Both the position numbers and the translations under genes were made by a program. The notes below the pieces were generated by a model that saw only the letters and a list, made by a program, of their open reading frames with translations, was not told where the DNA came from and did no database searches. A DNA stretch of 64,000 bases, from contig MU004240.1 in NCBI GenBank assembly GCA_010405405.1, forward strand, positions 574,217-638,216, in the 5' to 3' direction. Positions 28,306-63,545 of this stretch are shown here, piece after piece. How positions within the stretch are numbered: position 1 is the first letter of the stretch; each line of letters begins with the position of its first letter. Source of the DNA: Microthyrium microscopicum. Taxonomy: Eukaryota > Ascomycota > Dothideomycetes > Microthyriales > Microthyriaceae.

Positions 28306-30678
28306 ATGTCTCCACCTCGCCGCTCGTCCAAACGCGCGGCTGATCAAAACCCCGTCACTTCGTATTTCCTACCCAGCAATGCCACAAGCTCCTCCCCGGT
28401 CTCCAAAAAGCAAAAGATGATCGAGAACACAATCTCCTCTGCTGAAATTGTGCCTACTTTGAACCAAACTCTACCAATCCCTTCTTCTTCGACACTTTAC
28501 CCATTATCAGCGCACAATGGTACGACAGAGCCGTTCGAAGTCAGATTTGCGAGGGTGAAATCAATCGCTGCTCTGCCAAATGCAGAAAAACCACTGCCTG
28601 TCGGAGAGCCGCCTGTCTGGTCCAAATATCGCAACACGATGTGCGAAACCCTGGACTACTTTCGAGCATACCAGAGCGGAACTTCCTCCAAAGGCGAGCT
28701 GTACCGAGGCAGCTTGATAGCTGGCACCACTTATCCTGGTGACTGGCAGGACGCGAATCGAATCATCAGCCGGCATGGTGGATGTTCCGGAAAACAGGAT
28801 GGAAAGTCTGGGCTTATTAAGAGTCAAAAGTGGGACCTTCAGTCTACAGCCTTTCAGAGGCTCATCGACGACCAAATACCCATCCCCTTTATTGTCGGTT
28901 CAGATTATGAAGGTAGCATCTGTCAGCTTCCCAGCGATAAGCCGTTCTCTGTCATGGGACATTTTCTGCCACAGTATATGTGGATGGCCCGTCAAGGAAA
29001 GCACAACATCATCCGATACTCTCTGCGCCGGTTGCCAGATCAGCCGGCTTGGTGGAATGGTCAAGGATTACCAACTCTCGACGACGTACTACCTCCACCA
29101 CAGGAGCTAGAATGCGCGACGTGCTGCAAGTCATATCTTCAGGTCTATACCGCTTGGATGTGTCTAAATGAGAAATGTGCGGAGTTCTGCAAAGTTTCTG
29201 GCACCCAGCTTGATTGCGCCGTGCTGGAGTACAATCCGCATTTTCTGTGCATGGAGCTGCCAACACCCATTCCTCAGCCCACAGAACCACTTGTTCCACA
29301 CCAGTTTGTTCCCTCAACCGGTGAAAACTATGCCTTCAATCTCGCAGTTCGTGCAACTAAAGGCAATGTTTGTCCCACGTGCCGACAATGTGTTGGTCGA
29401 AGTCGTCTAGTTGGCAAAGCCTGGGAGTGTGACAATCCTGACTGTAACTATTCCATTACAGTGCCGCAAGGGGTGCTCACCGGCCCAAATGTTACTGCTG
29501 AGCAGCGTCCTTTATTATACAACGGACAGGCAAGATGTAACGACGTGGTTTGCCAGGACTTGAACTCGCCCATCACCATTCGCAAATTCTTCGACGGCGC
29601 ATACACGTACAAGCGCTATGACATCCCCGGGACAGACAGCTTCGTTGTTCATATTGCCCCGAATAGAAGTGGTCTGGAAGGACCAGCTCGTCCGCATGAT
29701 CTTTTCGAGTCACTACAGAAGGAGGACGTTGGAATGAAGCGCCGATTTGTGGGGCCACATCGCGGGCACACAGCCAAATTCACGGCACAATTCAGCACCA
29801 ACGTGGGCTTACCATACAACTATGTTGCTGCTGAACAGAATATCAACGAATCTACGACGTCTTTTGCTGAGTCTCCACAGGTTTTGCACGACGCTTTCGC
29901 TGGGTGCAACAACTGGGGTAAAGTAGCTGTCGGTGATGGCTATCTGAACTGCAATGAAATGCTGGCACTGGGATATCTGGAGAAAAATAAGATAGGCTAT
30001 CATTCAGATGGCGAAGAAACCCTCGGTCCAACGATCATCACCCTGAGCCTTGGTCACGTTGCCCAAATGAAGCTGCGGATGAAAGAAAAGTACTGGCAAG
30101 GATACAGCGATAAGAACGTCTACGCCGACAAGAAGAAGCCGGTACCTAATTGCTGCAACTATGAAGAGCGGCTCAAGGCCTGGGAGACGATTGCCAGTAT
30201 CCAGGCGGACCCATCGAAACTTCAGGCAAAGAAAATCGAAGAGATCCAGGCTATTCAGGCAGCCACTGTCGCCAGCTCCAAGAAGGCTAAAAAATCGCTC
30301 ACGCTCTTCTTGGACATGGAGCTCAACCATGGTGATGTTGTCATCATGCATGGCGAGCCATTACAGGAATTCTTTGAGGTGAGATATTATTGTTATTCTT
30401 CATCAGTCTAAAACTAACTTTCTTAGCATGGTGTTGAACCCAAAGGGAACATGAGATTTGCGCTGACTACCCGACACATTCTTCCACATAAGGTTCAGAA
30501 TGTACTTCCCGACGGTTTTGATGCATCAATTCCGACGGTTCAATTCACCCACCCTCTGGCTTCGTCTCCTGGTCAAGGCTTTGCAGATGGGGTCAATTAT
30601 CCCAAATGGCTTCATCCTGATGCGACCAGCCAAACAGACAATTCTGACCCTCCGCCCACTGAACAGAGCATTGTGTAG
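28306..30678 (+). CDS. AlkB-like 2OG/Fe(II) dioxygenase with zinc ribbons, paralogue 1
   Basis: Two exons (28306-30378, 30427-30678) give 774 residues up to TAG. The basic N-terminus is MSPPRRSSKRAADQNP. A zinc-ribbon region follows with CATCC...WMCLNEKCAEFC (about residues 267-290) and CPTCRQC...WECDNPDC (about 355-385). The C-terminal AlkB-type core has YHSDGEETLGPTIITLSLG (HxD iron ligands), GDVVIMHGEPLQEFFEHGV (distal His, split by the intron) and MRFALTTRH (the R-x5-R that binds 2-oxoglutarate). All expected catalytic residues are there, so it could demethylate or hydroxylate nucleic acid or protein; the substrate is unknown. After the in-frame TAG (30676-30678) the same frame goes on for 53 coding-like codons (EDTEIEEASPEYEKILVPNI) to TGA at 30838. 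The neighbour at 31599-34604 is a diverged, convergent paralogue. Confidence 0.88.
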
Positions 30679-30840
30679 GACTCTGATGCTCTTCAGATGG
30701 GAAAGGCGACAGTGCTGTCGGTCGAGGATACTGAGATAGAAGAAGCGTCCCCGGAGTACGAAAAGATCTTGGTTCCCAACATCGTGGAGGCACTGGGCAC
30801 CTACGGTCGTCCTGAAGATGAAGAGATGAAGGACATCTGA

Positions 30841-31598
30841 TTGCTCTTCGGAACAGGATGCGATGTAGAAGACTTGTAGGGAGCGGATGCTTGTTGATTG
30901 AATTTTGGATAACGCTTAACGCGAACATATATAGCAGAATAACAGCCAGGTTCAGACGCATTAATAGACGCATTACTTCACTTCTTCCTCCATCGATCTA
31001 CGCTGCATGATGTGACTCCCCTATGTTTTGGAATACAAACCTTTGTCTTGTGCCAGATGAAGGTTGCCCATGATTTATTGGGTTCCATGCCATAAGTGCC
31101 TGACTTCCTATAGTATTGATAATCACATGTACTTCAACTTTTGATCCTCACCTCTACACGTAATCTCGTTGTGCTGGAAGAAGGCCCTGCGTTGGTGGAT
31201 ATTCCGGCTGAAAATTCAATCCTAAAGATTGTAAATGAAAAGTTTGCGGACTGGACAGTGTTTGGCGTCGCGCATCGGCTAAACAGCATTAAGATTGGAT
31301 CTGATAGTCATGATGGATCACGGGCGCGTTGTTGAGTTTGCCACTTGGTGGCTACAGCAGTGGTGAGATATAGACTCCATATCCGGAGGGTCTATGAGGC
31401 GCAGGGAATCACGGGAAGATGGAGTAGCAGTCCAAGTCTAGATTGAAGAGTGCGTGTATCTATAAACCCAGTATCTACACAGCAGAAAGGTCTAAAGTCT
31501 TTTTTCCTTTTTTCTTCAGACATCAGACTAGACAATATACGGTTCACAAAACACAAAACATGATCATGCCTACCTCAGGCCCAACAAGCCGTCAACGC
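30841..31598. other. Spacer between convergent dioxygenase paralogues
   Basis: Apart from the ABC-transporter relic at 31144-31352 the spacer shows no coding signal. Confidence 0.5.
31144..31352 (+). pseudogene. Relic of ABC transporter nucleotide-binding domain (ABCC-like C-terminus)
   Basis: The plus strand reads RNLVVLEEGPALVD, KIVNEKFADWTVFGVAHRLNSI and then, in a different frame, DLIVMMDHGRVVEFA. Compared with the end of an MRP-type (ABCC) second nucleotide-binding domain these match, in order, the Walker B/D-loop (LILDEATSAVD), the helix before the H-loop, the H-loop AVAHRL and the terminal MDHGRVVE. The Walker B Asp-Glu-Ala-Thr is degraded, at least one frameshift separates the last block, and neither Walker A nor the ABC signature is found upstream. 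It is therefore the decayed 3' end of a lost gene, trapped between the two dioxygenase genes. Confidence 0.72.
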
Positions 31599-34500
31599 TT
31601 AAGGCCTTAGCCCTGATCGCGGATGGTGCTTGAAATACTCGGCCGCTTGCTTCCCATCATCACTCTCGCCCGCAGCATCCTCGTCAGAGCCTAGCTCTTC
31701 AGCGGGGGTAACCATTCCATTGCATATTCCGCGCGCGACGATCCCCGGGTGCAGTAGCTCTGCTGTAGAAGTAGAATCAGCACGGACACTGGCAGCAGGA
31801 GTAGTAGCAGGAGCATCACCAACCGGCTGTGAGGTTGTAGTAGCACTCGGCTTCCTCTCTTCATCTATATGCCGCTCTTTCATGAGTTTATAAGCGTGTT
31901 GCTGACCCAATACAAACCCTTGATCGTAGCCTTGTCCGCGACCGAGTGCGAGACCATCGTTGTAGCCAGCGCTGTAGCCCACGTGGTAGTCAGGATGGAA
32001 GCCAGCGGCTGCCTCGCGAGGGATCTGGCTCTGAGAGGGCGTGTCCTTTGCTTTTGTGGAAGGTCCCGACTCCTTGGCTTGGTTGCCGCTTGTAGTTGCT
32101 TGCCCAGCTGGAGGCTGCCAAGCTGCAGGAGAATTTGGCGGCGCATCAACGGACGTGGTGCTCGGCGGATCGATGGCAGTAGGCTGGCGAGCAACGTTGT
32201 TCTGACGACCACGCTCAGGACCATTGGCCGCCTTACCAGTAACAGTAGCCGTTTTCGATCTTGTAACCCGACCAGAAGCAGCAGTACGAGGATCAGGAGT
32301 CGGATGCACAGCAACAGTCCGACTAGAAACAACATCCCGAGAAGCCTCTGAAGGATCGCGCCACCAGGCCGCAGCGACTTGGCCCGTAGGCAAAGACCAG
32401 TTTGGCTTAAAGACGCCCTTCGCTGGAGGATGGTATTCTGTGGGGCCAACATCCATCTGGCGGGCCGTCACCGCCATTCTGAAAGGTCCCTTGAACAACA
32501 CCTGATGCTGAAAATACTCCTGGATGATTCTATTGTGCATCAACGAGAATCCACCATGCACCACAGGGAATACCAGTAGCTGTGTCGGACAAGCATTGTG
32601 TTTGTTGGTCTTCATCTTTGGATCCTTTTTCCACGTCAAGATCTTTTCTGCCCGCTCTTTGCCTGTCAGACCGTCTAGTTCGTCCTATCGTTCTAGACGT
32701 TTCCGCCAGTTGCAGGAGCCGATCAGGGGCTTTTCGTCTATCCACTTGCCACCTTTGGTATGACCAAAGTACTTTTCGTATTTCAGGCGAAAATACATTT
32801 TGCCAGAACAACCTAGGGACAGACTCATGATGTTATTCCCAACGGCAGATCCGCCAGTAGCTTCACTGTCATCGTGATAGGTCATGCCGGAATCTTCTTG
32901 GTATGCGGCGATGAGCATTTGATTGAATTGCTCGGTAGCGTTGGGGGCTGCTTTGTTTAAATAATAAGTCATACGATCGCGCAAATCATGGATGATTTCA
33001 GGTGCTTGTTCGAACGACGGCCCGCTTGAGGACGCCAGGTATTTGTAAGCTGCACCAATATTGAGTTGGAAATACTGGCTGTATGCTATACCATTGTCCA
33101 CTGCAAACATCTATTAGACCTCGAATCTTTTTGAAAGAGAACAGCGTTCAGGAGTAAAGCGTGTTGGAGGTGGAGACTTACTGCCATATGCACGAATCTT
33201 TGAGTTCCTTTGCACTTCGAAATGCTCTCCATTAGGTCTCTGTGGATCAACTGGTCCATAATCTGCAGCCTGGAGTTCTTTGAAATTCTGATTGACACCG
33301 CCTGGACCTTCTAATGGAGTTTTGTCGGGCGTGCCAACCATGATGAAAGCATCAGCAAGAACCGGATCCAAGAAGGTGTATTTGGTCAATTTGTAGGCGC
33401 CATCCCAGGTTTCCGTAGCTGCGATCAGGTCCTGGCCTGCCTTCTGAATACAATCGACTAGAGAAGGTCCCTCGCCCGTTCTGGGGCTATGATTTGGAAT
33501 ACAATCATTTATGCTCAGGATAGAACTTGGAAAGTCCCACGAGCGTGGTGTTGACCCATGATCACTTGGACATTGAATAGCTCCCTCAGCAATGCGTAGC
33601 CGAGGCACGACTTGATGACATCCTCCATCCCCAGCACATACCACTCCACGCATTGCTAATTCCGTCCAGTACTCAATGGCCGGATTCACGCCGGCTCTAG
33701 GTGTGAAGAGTGGTGGAATGAGATCACCCACAACATGTTGATTAGTGAGCTGTGTTTCTTGCTTCAAAAACCGAGGATCATACAGTGCCAAATCGTCGTT
33801 CTGAGGCTCTAACCTGTTTTGCAACTGCCAAAAGCTCTTGCAATTCCCATTGAGACACATCCAGTCGACCACAAAAATCTGCCAGCTGGGCTGTTTACAA
33901 GCCCCGCAAGTCTGTTTGACAGCAGGTGGGAAACCTCCGGAGGGAATTATCTCTGCCACTTCTTTAGCTTTCTCAGGCCACCAAGGGGGATGGCTCCGGT
34001 CCACTCGCTCCATCCGCATGACAGCTGTGGGCTTTAGTTTATCGTCACACAGTCTCATCTCATCCCAGCGATGGGTGACAATGAACCAGTCAAGAACATT
34101 GTATGTGTTTTCCTTGAAAGAGAACGGTGCACGTTCAAATCCTCCTTGTATTAGAACAGCGACAGGGCGTTGACTTTGAATAGCTTCTGTTACGGCAATA
34201 TCGTGACCTGGGCCACGCCCCGGGCCTCGAGTGATGATTGTATTGCCGTCAAAATAATCACGGTCAAAAGTGTTCTTGGCCATCAGCAAGCCGAGAAACT
34301 TGGACGATCCTATTTCCTTCGATGATTTATGGGTATAGATGCCACCATCCATGATTCTGAAGTACGGCACGCATGTGGTCAGGACTTGGCGACTGCTTGA
34401 CTGGACAGGAGGAGTAGATATCAGCGGTTTGGGTTCTTGTCTTACTGAATCATAGGCGAGCTTACTGGCCTCCCCCAGGGTCTTCTGCTCACCATTGATG

Positions 34501-34604
34501 GTGACTTGTATTGCAAAGGTAGGAGAATGTCGTACAGCATTGGGAATATGGAAAGGTCCGGTGGCTTGAGCCAACTGGTTCGTGGTGCGACGTCTAGGCG
34601 GCAT
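31599..34604 (-). CDS. AlkB-like 2OG/Fe(II) dioxygenase with zinc ribbons, paralogue 2 (in-frame TAG)
   Basis: Exon 1 is 34604-33182, intron 33101-33181, and exon 2 starts at 33100. The frame runs 612 residues to a TAG at 32685-32687 and then stays open for 361 more to TAA at 31599. The N-terminus MPPRRRTTNQ resembles that of paralogue 1. A zinc-ribbon region has CGACKQPSW...DWMCLNGNCKSF (W-M-C-L-N shared with paralogue 1) and CAGDGGCHQ...CPSDHG. The AlkB core has TYHDDSEATGG...MSLSLG before the TAG; FPVVHGGF, EYFQHQV (distal His) and FRMAVTARQM (Arg pair) come after it. Compared with paralogue 1, the TAG stands where NYEERLKAWE has Trp. The C-terminal tail is Pro/Ser/Thr-rich and holds a Gly-every-fourth-residue repeat. 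It may be a recent pseudogene, a read-through gene or a sequencing error; a 36-nt intron that would remove the stop is too short. Confidence 0.75.
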
Positions 34605-49516: not shown

Positions 49517-50752
49517 TCAGAAGAAAGAGAATCTCTTGTGAGCTTGTGCGTGGCGGCGGTGTGCGTGACGCTTGGTGTTTCCAAGCGCAATCGCTTTGAC
49601 GGCACCACCGGTGCACTGCGTACCGGCCGCCATGGCCATGGGTGTAGCACAGCCAAATGCGCACATGCCGAATTGTGTTGAACTGATGCAGTAGAAACCA
49701 GGAGTCGTGCAAGCTTGCTGACCGTTAGAGCAGGATCCTGAAATAGCACCACCAGTAGATCCTGAGGCGGGAGGAGAAGCTGGAGCAGCGGAGGCAGCAG
49801 CTGAGGGAGCAGCAGCAACGGACGAGGCGGCGGCTGGAGCAGCTGTTGCAACAGTAGCCAAAGTTGTGGCAGCAGCACTAGCGCCGGAGCCTTCAGCAAA
49901 GGCACCAGCAGAGGCGCTGGATGGAGCGGAAGACACAGCAGCAGGAGCGGCAGCAGTAGCAGATGAGCCAGAAGCAGGGGCAGCAGAAGCAGCTGACCCA
50001 GAGCTGGAGCCACTGCCAGCAGAACTTTCAGATGAACATACGCTGTTGAGCTTGAGCGGGTAGTTCAACTTGCTGTCTTGTGTAACGTATTTGCCCGGAT
50101 TGGGGAATTGAGTGTTGAAGTTCTCAACCGTTGCACATGTACCAGAGGGCGCTCCAATGTTGGCAGCGAACATTGTGGGAAGGCTGGTAAGATCGCCAGT
50201 GCCACCAGTAAAAGAAACCTTCGCGCAGTTCATGTACATCTCACGGTTGCCAATGTTGTTGAACCAAGTCCAGGAAAGTACGGCAGCACCATTCTTGACC
50301 TCTGGGGGGATTGTGAAGGTCAGATTCTGATTGACACAGTCAGTGCCGGAAGGATCGGTGCAGGCTCCGAAGCCGTCATTTAAGTTGCCAGGTGCGTTGG
50401 TTGGGCATCCTCCCAGAAAGCTGTGAATGACGTTCCAGTTTTCTGGCTTTGCTTGGTCTGCTTTGTCGGTTGCGTATGTGATAGAAATCTGGCATGACCC
50501 GCCACCGTGAACAGCAGTGTTGACACCACCAGCACCGAGGTCAAACTTCAAAGGTTGAACAGAACCTACGGCCATGTTGGTAACTGTACCTTGCGTGGTA
50601 TCCGCACCCTGGCAAGGAAAGTTGCTTCCAGACGCATCGAGTGGTGATTTGCTGAAGGAATTGGGAATTGGAACAGGTGTGTCGATGAAGAAATGGGCGG
50701 CAGCAGTGTTGATTGCAAGGCCCATAGCGGCCGCGATCATGGTAGTTCTCAT
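49517..50752 (-). CDS. AA11-like lytic polysaccharide monooxygenase with linker and C-terminal Cys module
   Basis: A single exon of 411 residues. The signal peptide MRTTMIAAAMGLAINTAAA leaves His20 as the mature N-terminus (HFFIDTPVPIPNSF), the first copper ligand. The second is His82 in AVHGGGSCQ. The axial Tyr lies in WTWFNNIGNREMYMNCA, with EGGCP-like FLGGCP and FTIPPEV between: the AA11 (chitin-active) pattern. From about residue 230 comes a Ser/Ala/Gly/Pro linker of some 110 residues. Then a cysteine module (CSNGQQACTTPGFYCISS, FGMCAFGCATPM, GTQC) like the small X278-type module found on some AA11 enzymes, and a basic His-rich end (KRHAHRRHAQAHKRF). An in-frame ATG 81 nt upstream would spoil the signal peptide. 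It is probably secreted and acts on chitin, perhaps in wall remodelling. Confidence 0.9.
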   Translation of the reverse strand: MRTTMIAAAMGLAINTAAAHFFIDTPVPIPNSFSKSPLDASGSNFPCQGADTTQGTVTNMAVGSVQPLKFDLGAGGVNTAVHGGGSCQISITYATDKADQAKPENWNVIHSFLGGCPTNAPGNLNDGFGACTDPSGTDCVNQNLTFTIPPEVKNGAAVLSWTWFNNIGNREMYMNCAKVSFTGGTGDLTSLPTMFAANIGAPSGTCATVENFNTQFPNPGKYVTQDSKLNYPLKLNSVCSSESSAGSGSSSGSAASAAPASGSSATAAAPAAVSSAPSSASAGAFAEGSGASAAATTLATVATAAPAAASSVAAAPSAAASAAPASPPASGSTGGAISGSCSNGQQACTTPGFYCISSTQFGMCAFGCATPMAMAAGTQCTGGAVKAIALGNTKRHAHRRHAQAHKRFSFF

Positions 50753-52793
50753 ATTGATGGATTTTGGTGTTGTGAAGAAATTGAGGGGTATCAAATCAAA
50801 GATGCTATACCGGATAGCGTCGTAGGTTTTCAAAAATCGAAAAGTTGGAAACGTTTAGATGGTTGTCTTGTGAGTTGGTTGAAGAACCTGTTGAGATAGA
50901 TTTGGCAAAGGTGCGAATGCTCTTTTTCTTCACAGAAGATTGAAAGGAAGGTATGCAAAGCCACAGGCTCGCTATGAAGGAATGACTGAACTTTTGTTGG
51001 GATCGCTGGGATGGGAGGAAAAGAAGAGTCTGGGCATGATGGGAAACATTCTTATATATGTTTTACAGCCTTCCAAGTTCGCCTCCCGTTAGAAACAATG
51101 AGAGAGCTAAGCTTTTGCAGGCAGGGGCACAATTCATCTCGACAGGGGATGGTGGTGCGTTCGCAATCCCGCCGCAGCAAGACAAAGGAGATCATCAACA
51201 ACCAATATCCAGCAGTGGATCCCCTCTGCAGTGGAACAGGCACGGAGGTGATGTCTGGCCTGAATCTAGTACAGACCAGATGCAGGCAAAGTATTCGCGG
51301 GAACAAGATGCGCGTGTTACCATGACTCTCCTGTTTCGGACAAGCTGCGTACTGAAGGCATCTCCCTAAGGTAAAAGTGGTGGGATTGGACAAAACAATC
51401 GCTGGGGTGCATGGTTTCGAAACAGCTGAAATTCCTTGTCCTGGAAGAATAAAACAAAAGTACTCAAGACACTGTCGAAGGCACCAGAAAAATTGAAAGT
51501 AAGCTGATCCACTTTCAGGAGATGGGACTGCACGACGTGTGACTGGTGGGCGAAGCTCTCCTGTGGCGTAAAAGCGCTGCAGGAACAAGGGCTTGCATGG
51601 TCATCTTGAGTGGTGATAGGTCCAGTGCACATCCGAATACTCTCTTGCCTGCCCAATCAAGCTACCCTGACAGTTCCGTTGACAATGTTTCTTCGGGCTT
51701 TTCCATCGTGTCTCTGCAAGGGAGCTGGTTTTTACGGTTTTGATTCTCTACTCTTTGCGCTCTTGAATCCACTCCGCTTCAGCTGCGCGTTTCGCCGAAA
51801 CAAATCTTTTGTCTAAGATGTTATTCTGCGAACCGCCGTGGGATGTGCACACGTATTGCTGATTTGGTTGGCTCTGATTTTGGCCAAGCTGAAACAATGA
51901 GTACGACTTTTTGACCCAGGCAATTCCGCACGATGTAGTCGTTCACTCTTTGAGATTTTCATTACGCACTGGAAATAGCAAGCTCGTGCTGCAAGGCTGC
52001 GAACATGTTGTATATCGGCCAGAAATAGGGTAAATGGCTGACAATTGCCCTGTTTTTGAGAACTCAAGGAGTTCCAGTCGTATGCATTCCATGTTTGGCA
52101 GTCTGCAAGGCAGCTTCTTTGCAGCTTTTACTGCAGAACAAACAGGTTGTCTAGTCACTGCGTGTCAGATTGGCCACACTTTGACAGATCTTTTTCATCA
52201 ACATCTCGAGGAAATAGGGGGAGAGTCAGTGTTGTTGAGACTCACGATAGACAGCGCCTAACGCAGGCGAATGGTAGAAACTAACCAAGTCAAGTCGCAC
52301 ATGCACCGCTACATCTGGTCGGCCAAGTCAAAGAGCGTCAACATGATTCTCCAATATTGGATAAGCGCTCGAAAATTGAGAACTGGTTGTGCGATGCAAT
52401 TGATGGAGTGAAGTTGGGCGGGCAGCTCACAAGCGTTCTACCGTATGGAGCAACCACGACTTCGCTCCTTCCCCAGGTGCCACATGGCCGGACCCTCCCG
52501 TTTTGACTCTCCCGCTTTGGGCGCAATTTTGAAATTTTTGAGCAATTGCACAAATTTAAAACGGACACCACGATCGGACTCGTGATAAATACCTCGTAGT
52601 TCATAGTTCGGCGGGGTTTTCATGTCATCGCTTTGCTGAGGTTGGAACTTGCCCGTTGGTGTGAAACAAAACACTTTAGAAACATGAACAAAATCATTGT
52701 AGAAAAGCTTAATCCATGAACGTACATAGTCTTGCAGCGGCAGAAATGGTAACCAATCCACCAAAATCTGACAGACCAGACTGCAGGTTTTCA
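50753..52793. other. Gene-free stretch, 2 kb
   Basis: Upstream region of the LPMO gene and downstream of the second DUF3433 gene. The 178-codon minus frame at 51052-51588 and others here have no motif or splice support. Confidence 0.5.
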
Positions 52794-55700
52794 TCAAAGC
52801 CACCCGCCTTCTTTTACACTGCCAGGCTGCCATTCAAACAACTTCCACGTAGAAATATTCGAGGAGTTCATGTTTTCACTTTTGAATGACAGCCCGGTTG
52901 TTGTTCTTGTTAGACCGATCACGTATGGGTGCTTTTCGATGCCAAGGTGCGATTGTTCGTCAGTGCCAATGAATGTGCCAAAGCCATACTTTTGGGCAGA
53001 TGTAGTGATGAGTGATTGTTGGTCTCCTTGAGTGGCAGTGGACCGATAGTCTTCGACTGCGTGACTTGCTGCATAGTAGGCTAAAACAGAACCGATGCTG
53101 GTTGGTAGTCGTGCCAGAATTTTCCAAGGCCTTCGTAGATAGAGCGCCACTGCCGTACATATGTAGAGACCTAGAATGACCTCCGCGATGATGAAAAGAG
53201 ATTTTGACATAAAAATCCGCACTTGTGGAGTACTCATACTGCCAATAATCCGAGCGTTTTTGTTTGCGTTGGGTTCAAGAAGACGGCCCATATTCTGGCT
53301 GATCATGATGGAAAAGAGTTTAGAGTATTGAGCTGCGACTGGTGCAATCATTTCTTTGGGGTTCGGGGGTGAACTGTTAGGATCCAGGAAAGCCGAAGAA
53401 TTTGTGTCCAACTCCAAAAGGTAGTTGTTGAAGTCTGACGGAAACGAATCATTGGCCCATGTGAAAGCCCTTAGCGGAAGCCAGTCAATGATGAATTGGT
53501 GCATTTGTCCTAGTAAGTCAGATGAAGATGTAGTAAAGAGGTTGCTGACGTTCTTGGAAACGTCTTTGACGGCGAGCTGTTGTAGAACATGGCCAGCGGA
53601 GTCAGTCAGAACTTCCGCGGTGCCAGTTTCAATGGCACCACGGCAGATAAGCGCGGATGATTTAAAAGAAGTCAGGTTGTAGCTTGGAATTCCGTTGCTG
53701 GTATCCAAGTAGCCGTCGTCGGATGCGTTCATTTTTGCTCTCAGCCACGCAGCGACAAAGTGCTCGCTACAGAAAACTTGGTTGGCTAAGGTATCATTGG
53801 CACTGGCAGCCAAAGCAAAATAACCTTCTGCATGTACGGAACCGTTGGCAGCTCCACCCATCTCTATATCTTTGGTAAAGTTACCAAAGGCTCGTGGCAG
53901 GCAGTGCACAGTCGAGCCATTGACATCCAGCTCAATCGGGATTTCTAGTAGGGCGGATTGGATAGTGAAATTATCAGACCTGATTCTATTGGCAGCTTTG
54001 ATGCTTGTTTGCAATACATCGCAATTGACTGATCCTCCAATTACTTGAGTCTCGGCACGATGAGTCCAGGTTGAATTTTGAGAGTCCCCAAGTGGAATGA
54101 AAGGAAGATAGAACCAATTCTTATCCGCCCAAGATGGCATTAGTGTGTGTGCAGTATCGTTGGACATTCCAGCAAAAAAAGGTTCAGAGAAGCCCTTAGC
54201 CTCAGGGGTAAAGGGCACCGCCAATCCATCCAAAGGAACAAAATGGAGTGAGTATGGACTGGAATAAGCGGCTGTGGTTGAGTGGAAGACGGTGTTTTCA
54301 AAGAAAAGGGCACTCAAGGCAATGGCAAAGACGTGAGCAAGAAGTGACATGAAGCAGACCATGGCGAGTAAAATATGCTTTCTCTTCAGAGCTTTCCAGA
54401 AGACGAACTGTGGGGGAAGGGAGGAGTAATCCAAAGCGATGCTGTTCTCTCCGGATTGTTGACCCTTTCGGAGACTGTCAATCGGTTCCAGTAAGCATAG
54501 GTTACGATTGAGAACGACCCAAAAAGGCTCAATTAGGGTGCCGACAGCGGTTGGAAGATAGTTTTCTATCAATTGTCGAATTATTTGATTCTGCGACGGT
54601 AATGGAAGACCTAAGAAATATTAGCTCATATAACGATGCTTTGGAAGACAATCAGCCATAATCACCATTGCTTGACATGATTTTCCAGTAAAGAATTGGC
54701 AGCAAGATGAACCCGAAGATCAAAAGGAAAACGAATGCGACTCCTGTTCGTAGTAGAAATTCTTTTGGGTAGATGCCGTTCACAGCTTGAGCGGAAGGCC
54801 TGTCTATGCTGCTTATTGATGATTGATCCGATGTATTATTCTCGTGGCGTGGTAAAGTCAGGGAAATTGCTGGAGCCAACGAAGAGGAGCGGTGTTGTAG
54901 CTGGTATCCGTCCTGCGAGAAGCATTCTTCTAACCTTTCGTTGCTTGCCTGGTCATGCGGCCCAAATTGCTGTAATAGAGCCTTGTCGTTTGCAGTGAGC
55001 TCCATGATACTGTTTATAGAGGCCGGATCTTCACATAAATGTAGAGGTCGTACATTTACCGACCGCCATATCCAAATAGTGGTTAACACAGTGGCCGCAA
55101 GTAGGCCTTGAGCAATGTAAGCAAATACTGGCACTACAACGATACCCTCGGTTGCGAATGTGCTGCTTCCTAAGGAAGACGATGCTGGGTCCGTATCCTC
55201 CGACACGACGGTCGACATTTGTAGTGCAAAAAGCAAGCTATACGCCGAATGAATCGATTGAACTAGAACGGTGGGATCTAGATAGTCCTCCGCGGGTCTT
55301 TGTGTAGATCCAATGGCGAAGGGTGTGATCTTGTCTAAGTTTGTCACACTGATTGATCTCCCATACAAGAAAGAGGATTGATCGGGCCAGGATGTAGTGG
55401 GGAAATTGGTTCTCTGCGAATTCTGCTGCGCACCTAGGTTGATAGCTTCCTCAAATCCAGTTATATTAAACATCTGTCCGGGTATTGAGACTGGAGTACC
55501 AATATGTCCAAAGTTTAGGATTTCGTGAGCCGGATTTGATATGGTGACTTCGGCATCCTGCACATAGAAGTTGGATCTGCACCATCGTCTGGTAATGTTA
55601 AAGTGTTTGAAGACGTCAGGTTCCGCCGTGTAGTTTTTCAAGGCCGCCGCGGATAACAGAGGCTTCGAGTATTGAATGAGGAAGGTGTTTGATTGGTTTT

Positions 55701-56812
55701 GGGGACAAGCGCCTCGATCCAAAGAGTATTGAGCGGAATCTCCACTCTTATAGCCAGCAAAAATCATCTGATATGGCCTCGATTCATCGAATTGTAGGGT
55801 AGGGGATGGAGCGGTCATGTGGCAGCCCCATGTACTATTCAAGAATGTAATATTGGACTGGTCAAGGTACTGAATAGGTTCTTCGCAGGAAATGTCCGCT
55901 CCATAGCGTTTGGTCATACCCGTCAGTGATCGAGTGGCCGCTGCAACCCCTACGTCAGACGTCTTGATATCTGTGAACGGAGCTACGGCATAATCTCTTG
56001 TTACGAAAGGGGGCAACGTCTCATTGAGCCAAAGTATGTTCATTGCTGAATAGACCGATTTTGTAGACAACGTTGTTTCTTGCTTACTCAGCGGAAGAAA
56101 CTGTGTTGATCGTTGCGTTGAGGTAGACCTGGTGATATTGACTGTACTGGTGGCAAAGATACCGGCTTGAACGGGTGTAAGTCCCCATGTCGTGAGCATC
56201 ACCGCCAAAGAGGCAACGAAGACAGCCCAGTGCTTGAATTTCAGCGCCTTGGTCGGCACCGAAGCAAGAAAATCCGAGGGATAATGGAGTAGCAATGACT
56301 CTCTTCCCGTCGCGCCTCCCGGCTTCGACAGTTGAAAGTATGGCTCCATTCGCCGTATATCCATGTCGATCCATGCCCAGATCATGCCGTAGGCGACGAA
56401 TATGATGCTTGGGAAGTTGTTATACAAGAAAGTTTTCGACAGAGGCAGTTCGCTAATGTTAGGAGCAAATATCAGTCCACCATTCTTCTGACTCTGCATA
56501 TGGAGCAACTGTATTGCTACTATCATCAATAGCGTAATGAAGATGACAGTCCCCAAGAAAATAGAGCGTAGCGTTTTGGGCTTCCATGGTTCTCCTGGCC
56601 CTGATCAGTCGAAATTTCCGGAGTGTTTGAATTGAATACTTACGCTGAGTTGTGCACTTTTCATCATCGAGCTCTGTCGCCATTCGGGTACCAGACCCGG
56701 TCAACGGCCATTTAGGCGTTGACGATGCTGAGTTTCCAGGACCACGAGGGGCACTGCTCCACGAGGTATGCATATTATCCGGCGAGAGAGGCGAGTAGAG
56801 GAACCGATTCAT
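52794..56812 (-). CDS. DUF3433-domain multi-span membrane protein
   Basis: Three exons (56812-56644, 56600-54666, 54610-52794; introns of 43 and 55 nt) give 1306 residues. A Ser/Pro-rich cytosolic start (MNRFLYSPLSPDNMHTSW) leads to PWKPKTLRSIFLGTVIF and the first membrane helix. Two copies of the DUF3433 pattern (PF11915) follow. The first has NISELPLSKTFLYNNFPSII, RRMEPYFQLSKPGGATG, HYPSDFLASVPTKALKFKHW and an ectodomain with many Asn-glycosylation sites. The second has LPTAVGTLIEPFWVVLNRNL, LDYSSLPPQFVFWKALKRKH and another glycosylated ectodomain, ending KLFEWQPGSVKEGGWL. This duplicated layout is usual for the family, whose function is unknown. An ATG at 56824 in frame could add four residues. 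Confidence 0.9.
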
Positions 56813-57970: not shown

Positions 57971-61689
<3,719 letters not shown>

Positions 61690-61873: not shown

Positions 61874-63545
61874 TTAACCTGGTGACCGACCGTCTGTGCC
61901 TCGACGGGGGCTATTTGTCGCTGATCCTCCAGGTTTCTTGATCAGGCTGGCGAAAAAGCTGGAGAGCTGCTCGTTTCGTGCCTTTTCATCTTCGACTTCG
62001 CCCGGTGGTGTCTTAGGCGGCTCTGAATCACCCTTGGCCGCGTTACGGTTCTATGAATATCAGGTTAGAAATGAGCTGGAATTTTGGGAGAAATTTCTTA
62101 CATTGAGCTGCTTCAGCGCCTGTTCAACATCCATTTGAATACCGCCAACGTTGAACTGCACATTGCCAATATGCTCTTGCACATCGCCACCAGTTTGACC
62201 TCCCGCTGCAGCAGATGGCTTCTTTGTCGTTTCCCGGATATGCAAGTTCGCGTCTTCCTTCGCAAGACTCTCAAGCTTCTCAGATTGTTCACTAAGGAAA
62301 GCTTGGACATCTTTGCTGGCCACATCAATACCGGTTTCGTCTTCCGACTGCTGCACGCCAACTAGATCACCTCGTCGGGGATTCTTAATAACCTCTTCGT
62401 ACATAGCAACAGCGTCTGTTGCAGACTGTGTCTTTTCGGGGGGAGTGTCCATTTCATTCTCCGTCAAGCCAGTGCTGATATCGTCTGTCCACGCCAAACT
62501 GACATCCTCTACATAAAAGCTTTCTGTCAGAATGCGTATCTTACCCCAACTATCAAAATTAGGTGGCACAAGTATATGGTCACGATCCGTCGTATTATGT
62601 TTCAGCGGCGTCTTCTTTTGCAACATGCTCTGAATGCCTAGACTGCTGTGGATGAGGGTTTGAAGTGTGCTTCCACTCGTCGTGCCAGGCAAATGGGGCA
62701 TTGCGTAAATCAGCGAGCCACCGTGCTTTAGCAGGATGGTACGCAGGAATTGTTGGACAAAATCAAATTGGGTGTCCCGCCAGCCTTGTTCTTTCTCGAG
62801 AACCTCAATCTTGTTGCTGTTTTGGCATACGACGCATAGCGGGACACCGAGGGGTGAGTCCCATTCTCCTGGACCGAGTGGAAGTGCGACATCTGCGTCT
62901 AGGGAGGCTGCGCCGTCTGCAGTAGTTTCGGTGTCTTTTGAGTCATTGCGCTTGTTGTCACGCCATTCGATGATGTTGTCTTCAAATGCTTGAACTGTGT
63001 CTTTCGGCAGCGATGGGAGAAGGGAATGTAGAAGCCTTATCCAGGACCTGAGTTGCCTTAGCCAGGTCCATGGGTCTGACCAGTCCAATAATATAACGAG
63101 AAGCATGTTTGGGATTGTCTGCGGTGTAAACAAAGGGCGGAGGAGCGGGATGAAATGCGGTGAAGGCTTGGAAAGGGTATATATCGAGAGGCGCGCGAGC
63201 ATATCTTCGTGATCGGTATCCAGTACATCTTGATAGGTATATCCGAGAGCGAAATCATTGGCAATGGGGGGTTTTTGCGACGTTTGATTTCGAGATGCGG
63301 GTGTTGGGGTTGCGTCGGTTTCTAGACTTGCGACGAATTCTCTTTGAGACTCTGGAGATCCGCCTTAAGGTGCCTGTTAGATTTCGCGCTTCTCAGTGTC
63401 AAGTGCTCATACCTAGGACGACTAATTGTTTTTCAGCTAACTTCTTTCCGCTGGATACAGACTTCAGGAGAGAGGACCATATCTCCTTCTTCGGCGCATT
63501 CGACATTGGGGAAGCTGTGGTGGACGGATTGAACTCTTCCTTCAT
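61874..63545 (-). CDS. Dynein light intermediate chain
   Basis: Three exons (63545-63413, 63363-62102, 62050-61874; introns 49 and 51 nt) give 523 residues. Blocks in order are IWSSLLKSVSSGKKL, QLVVLGGSPESQREF (rebuilt across intron 1, at the place of the Ras-like P-loop, here lacking GxxxxGK as is usual in fungi), KPPIANDFALGYTYQDV, LLVILLDWSDPWTWLRQLRS, PLCVVCQNSNKIEVLEKE, FDFVQQFLRTILLKHGGSL and HILVPPNFDSWGKIRIL. A disordered tail with NEQLSSFFASLIKKPGGS follows, matching the conserved effector-binding helix of DLIC. It belongs to PF05783 and links cytoplasmic dynein to cargo adaptors. A second in-frame ATG (MSNAPKKE) 39 nt downstream could be used instead. Confidence 0.94.

Follow-up and report, generated by a model that had tools for sequence, protein, structure and literature searches.

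We analysed a window of 64,000 nucleotides (nt) from contig MU004240.1 of the fungus Microthyrium microscopicum (positions 574,217 to 638,216 of the forward strand; the genome comprises 36.9 Mb in 20 contigs), using the term window for this whole stretch, and describe two of its genes, A and B, each encoding an AlkB-type dioxygenase core preceded by two cysteine clusters and by an N-terminal region that, on the evidence of A, is probably SRA-like.

Two convergent paralogous genes

Gene A (28306-30678, forward strand) contains one 48-nt intron and encodes 774 amino acids, and gene B (34604-31599, reverse strand) contains one 81-nt intron and spans 974 codons, counting an internal TAG (Table 1). 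Splicing of gene A brings FFE and HGV together and so restores the AlkB distal histidine and the R-x5-R motif. The genes lie tail to tail with 920 bases between them. BLASTP aligns their products over 669 columns with 26% of residues identical (E 4e-49 in a comparison of this one pair), and the order of domains is the same. A tblastn search of the whole genome with A as query, at E up to 1, recovers A itself and B, the latter in two pieces, and nothing else. By these comparisons A and B are diverged paralogues, residing side by side.

The original prediction, which a model had made from the letters of this stretch, proposed two strongly diverged neighbouring copies in a tail-to-tail arrangement with basic PPRR starts, and each of these points is upheld, the proteins beginning MSPPRR (A) and MPPRRR (B). 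It also gave sizes of about 770 and 970 residues; the first is correct, but a clean 970-residue gene B is rejected because of the in-frame TAG.

Table 1. Coordinates of features in genes A and B, numbered from the first letter of the window.
Feature	Coordinates	Strand	Basis
Gene A exon 1 (residues 1-691)	28306..30378	+	Frame open from its ATG; GT donor at 30379
Gene A SRA-like domain (about residues 119-250)	28660..29055	+	Pfam SAD_SRA below cut-off; hhalign with shuffles; A+B profile against PDB
Gene A Cys cluster 1 (C270, C273, C286, C291), with WMCLN	29113..29178	+	Putative metal binding
Gene A Cys cluster 2 (C356, C359, C375, C380, also C362)	29371..29445	+	Putative metal binding
Gene A AlkB-type core (residues 502-700 in PF13532 match), crossing the intron	29809..30453	+	PF13532, E 1.2e-12
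Gene A intron, 48 nt	30379..30426	+	GT...AG; joins FFE to HGV
Gene A exon 2 (residues 692-774)	30427..30678	+	Stop at 30676-30678
Gene B exon 1 (residues 1-474 plus one base)	33182..34604	-	Open frame, ATG, GTAAGT donor at 33181
Gene B SRA-like region (about residues 77-214)	33963..34376	-	Alignment with A only; own Pfam and hhalign signal nil
Gene B Cys cluster 1 (C233, C236, C250, C255), with WMCLN	33840..33908	-	Putative metal binding
Gene B Cys/His cluster 2 (C323, C329, C345, H349)	33558..33638	-	Putative; matched to cluster 2 of A by alignment
Gene B intron, 81 nt	33101..33181	-	GTAAGT...GCAG; keeps the frame, AlkB core restored
Gene B exon 2 (residues 475-974), internal TAG read as X	31599..33100	-	Stop at 31601-31599
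Gene B catalytic stretch with TAG inside, from H550/D552 to R688	32460..32876	-	Motifs; PF13532 match covers residues 503-581
Gene B in-frame TAG, codon 613, between HxD and distal His	32685..32687	-	No good-donor intron among 17 frame-keeping candidates

The AlkB-type core and the cysteine clusters

AlkB-type enzymes take methyl groups off nucleic acids. Both proteins match PF13532, the AlkB-type 2-oxoglutarate (2OG)-Fe(II) family of Pfam, above its cut-off of 31.2 bits (A, 48.9 bits, E 1.2e-12; B, 34.5 bits, E 3.2e-8), confirming that a 2OG-Fe(II) family is matched, as the two AlkB-type cores of the original prediction would require. The iron- and 2OG-binding residues are also found in both proteins at the positions named there: in A an HxD at 566-568 (HSD), the distal His at 692 and R-x5-R at 701-707 (RFALTTR), and in B an HxD at 550-552 (HDD), the distal His at 673 and R-x5-R at 682-688 (RMAVTAR), the TAG falling between the HxD and the distal His. 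These positions line up with those of five other AlkB-type loci in the genome. Judged by motif and profile, A and B have an AlkB-type core with its iron and 2OG residues in place. The spacing from HxD to distal His is 126 residues in A and 123 in B, compared with 60-75 in the five other loci, and by this spacing a long insert between the two motifs is common to the A and B cores.

All seven first-look candidates in a genome-wide PF13532 search exceed the cut-off and correspond to A, B and these five others, the counts of loci given here and below for the genome being lower bounds. By eye we take L001 to be ALKBH1-like, L003 ALKBH2/3-like and L005 ALKBH6-like, and leave L002 without assignment; L004 (C4:1083242-1083763) encodes an AlkB core with a GRF zinc ribbon behind it, the latter confirmed by Pfam PF06839. 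By hhalign the nearest locus to A and B is L003; by BLASTP the nearest to A is L004 and the nearest to B is L005. When the two cores are combined into a profile and searched against PDB, ALKBH3 comes first (E 0.013) and ALKBH8 next (E 0.36), and five of the seven rows at E up to 10 are one or other of these; the ALKBH3 match spans the HxD stretch as well as that of the distal His and Arg.

The cysteine clusters lie in front of the core. The predicted WMCLN-x2-C motif is present in both proteins (residues 284-291 in A and 248-255 in B), and the clusters are consistent with the zinc ribbons that had been proposed. No Pfam family is above cut-off for the clusters of either protein, and the first cluster of B has a CEBP_ZZ match at E 0.019. 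We regard the clusters as probable zinc ribbons, zinc being the presumed metal. The GRF ribbon (PF06839) was considered and rejected as their family: neither A nor B has a GRF row up to E 10, whereas L004 matches.

The C-terminal tail of B, the 286 residues that follow R688 (31599-32459, reverse strand), appears by inspection to be of low complexity with a run of GYxxG-type repeats, and has a sub-threshold Pfam match to Yae1_N (E 0.0099).

A probable SRA-like domain in the N-terminal region

The long N-terminal regions noted in the original prediction are present, but their probable SRA-like nature had escaped it. With the whole of A as query SAD_SRA (PF02182) is the second Pfam row (E 0.092), after PF13532, and with the isolated 142-residue domain it is the first of two rows (E 0.0054), matching profile positions 43-148 of 148. 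A profile of the N-terminal halves of A and B, searched against 177635 PDB sequences, yields three rows, the first being the SRA domain of SUVH5 (E 0.12) in a colinear match that covers 27-160 of 167 in that chain; when the profile is trimmed to the domain there are four rows, with the SUVH5 SRA domain second (E 0.085).

Comparison of A and B together against a profile of four SRA sequences by hhalign gives a score of 34.8 (P 5e-5), which is reached in none of 400 column shuffles (highest 22.6); the reversed profile scores 10.1. Singly, A scores 30.7 and B 13.4. Among 105 control fragments cut from the long open frames of the window and of five loci, the best unrelated one scores 18.1, and the sole fragment above it is A's own domain. 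A structural model of A guided by SRA sequences has a predicted local distance difference test (pLDDT) score of 66.5 and a predicted template modelling (pTM) score of 0.66 and resembles SRA structures; compared by VIA-align with SUVH5, which was outside the model's alignment, it shows 23-26% identity. The rows L011, L012 and TagI were dropped from the fold alignment.

A number of results weigh against this assignment. The isolated domain of A reaches 16.9 of the 30.7 bits needed for PF02182, and the domain of B alone has neither a Pfam SRA match nor an hhalign SRA signal. In the trimmed-profile search of PDB a CRISPR RNA (crRNA)-processing protein, matched over a short stretch, outranks SUVH5 (E 0.067); phmmer with the whole of A against PDB returns nothing at E up to 10; and a genome-wide PF02182 search (E up to 10) misses A and finds one other locus, L011, only. 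A profile enlarged to ten SRA sequences lowers the signal (A and B together, 29.6, P 4e-4; A, 19.0, P 0.025; B, 14.6), the joint score again being reached in none of 300 shuffles (highest 23.6). Seven of the ten sequences are from viral contigs; among the additional SRA sequences none came from prokaryote contigs or phages and one came from plasmids, and two were left out, L014, which shares the contig of L013, and L020, whose match statistics equal those of L019. A fold predicted by AlphaFold2 (AF2) from A and B alone was unusable (pLDDT 28.6), and the alignment behind the better model of A included SRA rows as a guide.

The putative pocket is likewise only partly that of an SRA domain. The SRA fold flips out and reads 5-methylcytosine (5mC). 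UHRF1 is described as sandwiching 5mC between Tyr466 and Tyr478, with Asp469 bonding to 5mC and Thr479 aiding the preference for cytosine (PMC5995235, PMC4157451). In an alignment read by hand from the weak match, in which places may shift, the positions of Tyr466 and Asp469 are occupied by Y143 and D146 in A and by F113 and D116 in B, and those of Tyr478 and Thr479 are replaced by S155 and R156 in A and by T125 and R126 in B, so that both proteins have an Arg at the Thr479 place. The YDG motif is lost, the aligned residues being VMG in A and VLD in B. With the first two pocket residues kept in kind, the last two changed and YDG lost, the domain appears SRA-like but not a canonical 5mC reader. 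There is a precedent for such divergence in PvuRts1I, whose diverged SRA-like pocket is reported to read a base other than 5mC, namely 5-hydroxymethylcytosine (5hmC) (PMC4157451).

Taking these data together, the region before the cysteine clusters is probably SRA-like on the evidence from A, although the formal thresholds are not reached and no single line is sufficient, and we do not claim membership of the SRA family for the domain of A or B. A search of NCBIfam with A gave no match.

An in-frame TAG in gene B

The TAG in gene B aligns by BLASTP with a sense codon in A. There are 17 frame-keeping GT-AG intron candidates that could remove it (40-160 nt, with the donor no more than 150 bases upstream of the TAG), none of which in our judgement has a good donor; 15 would also delete a CN[YW]xxRL stretch that is common to A, and the remaining two (42 and 51 nt, donor GTCTAG) start where this stretch ends. 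Downstream of the TAG are 361 open codons, for which the chance expectation is about 2e-9 at the composition of the window, and these encode the distal His and R-x5-R of B, aligned with those of A. This suggests that function was lost recently, that the assembly is in error or that the stop codon is bypassed. If the TAG is real and obeyed, B would terminate before its last catalytic residues; on account of this codon the protein may lack activity or be only partly made.

It is quite possible, if somewhat short of probable, that B is a recent pseudogene or has been mis-sequenced and that A is the sole working enzyme, which would fit any reading of A. The position of the TAG between HxD and distal His, with no good intron to excise it, argues for this; the long open frame and aligned residues beyond it argue that any loss is recent, or that bypass or an assembly error is responsible.

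DNA methylation genes and relatives elsewhere

At least five loci in the genome (L022-L028; contigs C3, C4, C6 and C11) contain cytosine-5 DNA-methylase domains, which is a large set for one fungus. They were recognized by seven exon-level matches, the weakest at 22.8 bits relative to a cut-off of 22, and one locus lies in an open frame stated as 2126 amino acids. On rescanning of three of these loci, a BAH domain was seen in one, together with a sub-threshold DNMT1-RFD match, as in DIM-2. There is one MT-A70 locus. A genome-wide search for Tet_JBP gave no match, but control genomes gave none either and absence is therefore not established; PF12851 (Tet_JBP) is also absent from the rows of both A and B up to E 10. 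DNA methyltransferases (DNMTs) are reported to yield 3-methylcytosine (3mC) as a by-product and to co-evolve with ALKB2, more weakly in fungi (PMC9246332), which provides a circumstantial argument for directing an AlkB enzyme to methylated DNA.

Relatives of A and B outside this genome were not confirmed among 161 viral-contig and 102 prokaryote-contig pattern matches, as expected for a fungal family. The single locus in the genome with an SRA domain over the Pfam cut-off, L011 (C7:1433945-1434361, E 3.6e-25), lies in an open frame of 536 amino acids that has no second Pfam domain at E 0.01.

Comparison with known systems

A and B fall within the AlkB kind, with the SRA-like domain as an added variation. 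They share with the ALKBH2/ALKBH3 type (PF13532) the HxD...H iron site and the R-x5-R 2-oxoglutarate site, ALKBH3 being the best PDB match (E 0.013), and differ from it in overall length (774 amino acids and 974 codons), in the longer gap between HxD and distal His, and in having an SRA-like domain and two cysteine clusters in front. With the SRA domain (PF02182) they share a weak colinear similarity, the first pocket aromatic residue and Asp, and an SRA-like guided model of A; they differ in falling below the family cut-off, in the loss of YDG, in the replacement of the second stacking Tyr and of Thr, and in the attached dioxygenase. Known SRA proteins have SET, RING or nuclease partners.

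The layout had been put forward as novel, and this holds in part: an AlkB core joined to a zinc ribbon already exists in L004, although there the GRF ribbon sits behind the core and matches PF06839, while the clusters of A and B stand in front and have no Pfam family above cut-off; what A and B would add is the probable SRA-like part. Fusion of SRA and AlkB domains is not described in the titles and abstract openings among the matches listed from open-licence PMC, and may well be described elsewhere. Mucor Dmt1 is also a fungal AlkB-family enzyme acting on DNA marks, and is set apart from A and B by description only, the available portion of the report presenting it as an NMAD-1 relative and mentioning no SRA-like part (PMC13297926).

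Possible roles of A and B

The reading that we favour, although it is held tentatively, is that A and B would be DNA dealkylases steered by a base-reading domain, for example in the repair of 3mC at methylated sites; we infer the DNA target, the reader function and the substrate alike. The predicted order is a basic start, the SRA-like domain, the two cysteine clusters, the AlkB core with its long insert and a C-terminal tail (about 280 amino acids in B). The SRA-like domain and ribbons would grip DNA where a base is modified or the chromatin is methylated, with the AlkB core oxidising an N-linked methyl group and thereby restoring the base. The favoured substrate would be 3mC or a different alkyl lesion located where cytosine is methylated or close by, 3mC being preferred because ALKBH3 is the best solved relative of the core and because DNMTs make 3mC as a by-product. 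A point against this is that the genome already has the ALKBH3-like locus L003 and so would not need another enzyme for 3mC repair.

A more far-reaching proposal, which we consider somewhat unlikely, is that A and B represent a fungal family uniting a base-flipping SRA-type reader and an AlkB dealkylase in one polypeptide, either as a repair enzyme for methylated DNA or as an eraser, in a fungus with several cytosine methyltransferases, the pockets of the paralogues having diverged for different modified bases. If the SRA-type reader is real, there would be a direct physical link between the reading of DNA methylation and AlkB chemistry. The handling of DNMT-made 3mC by fungi could then be tested with a single gene and a single protein, as could the removal of marks by a fungus without detectable TET. 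Separate substrates in DNA, RNA or protein had been suggested for the two copies; protein is possible, but nothing found points to it.

Erasure of a regulatory mark, in which N6-methyladenine (6mA) or 5mC (or an oxidised form) would be recognized by the SRA-like domain and that same mark removed by the AlkB core in place of TET, strikes us as unlikely. To our knowledge no AlkB-family enzyme oxidises 5mC as TET does, and the 5mC pocket is kept only partly in A and B. In its favour, writers of both kinds are present (the five cytosine-5 methylase loci and the MT-A70 locus), and Tet_JBP has no match in the genome, with the caveat of the equally silent control genomes. AlkB-family Dmt1 is described as a genetically supported 6mA eraser of Mucor (PMC13297926), and PvuRts1I shows that a diverged SRA-like pocket can read 5hmC (PMC4157451); the first of these sources, however, also reports 6mA to be low in Dikarya (PMC13297926).

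We think it quite unlikely that A and B are RNA-directed AlkB enzymes, in which the N-terminal domain would have a generic PUA-like or an unrelated fold and the ribbons would bind RNA. In support of this, the SRA fold is one of the PUA-like folds, and the weak PDB matches of the N-terminal domain include a crRNA-processing protein. In the PDB search of the core, the AlkB homologue ranked second is ALKBH8, which acts on transfer RNA, and the cysteine region of B has the weak CEBP_ZZ match (E 0.019). Nonetheless, the most complete matches of the N-terminal domain are to SRA, and the Pfam scan of A and B finds no RNA-binding family above cut-off.

Little credence is likewise given to the explanation that A and B are ordinary diverged AlkB paralogues, the SRA likeness being due to chance and the region a lineage-specific extension. 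None of the individual SRA scores from the libraries reaches its threshold, B alone gives no score, and unguided AF2 yielded no fold, but SRA is at or near the top in two unguided library searches, colinear over the domain, and none of the 400 or 300 shuffles matches the profile-profile scores. Chance resemblance between the motifs of A and B is ruled out by the E value of the pair together with both proteins exceeding the PF13532 cut-off.

Other genes in the window

Two adjoining open frames at 52794-56556 (reverse strand) each contain DUF3433 (E 6.1e-25 and 5.2e-26) and are perhaps another tandem pair. An SMC protein with N-terminal and hinge domains, which we take to be SMC3-like, is encoded at 57971-60883 (forward strand), and a dynein light intermediate chain frame lies at 62060-63202 (reverse strand). 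The product of 49517-50833 (reverse strand), which has no Pfam match at E 0.001, is secreted-looking; it includes a low-complexity stretch of Ala and Ser, and its end is rich in Cys.

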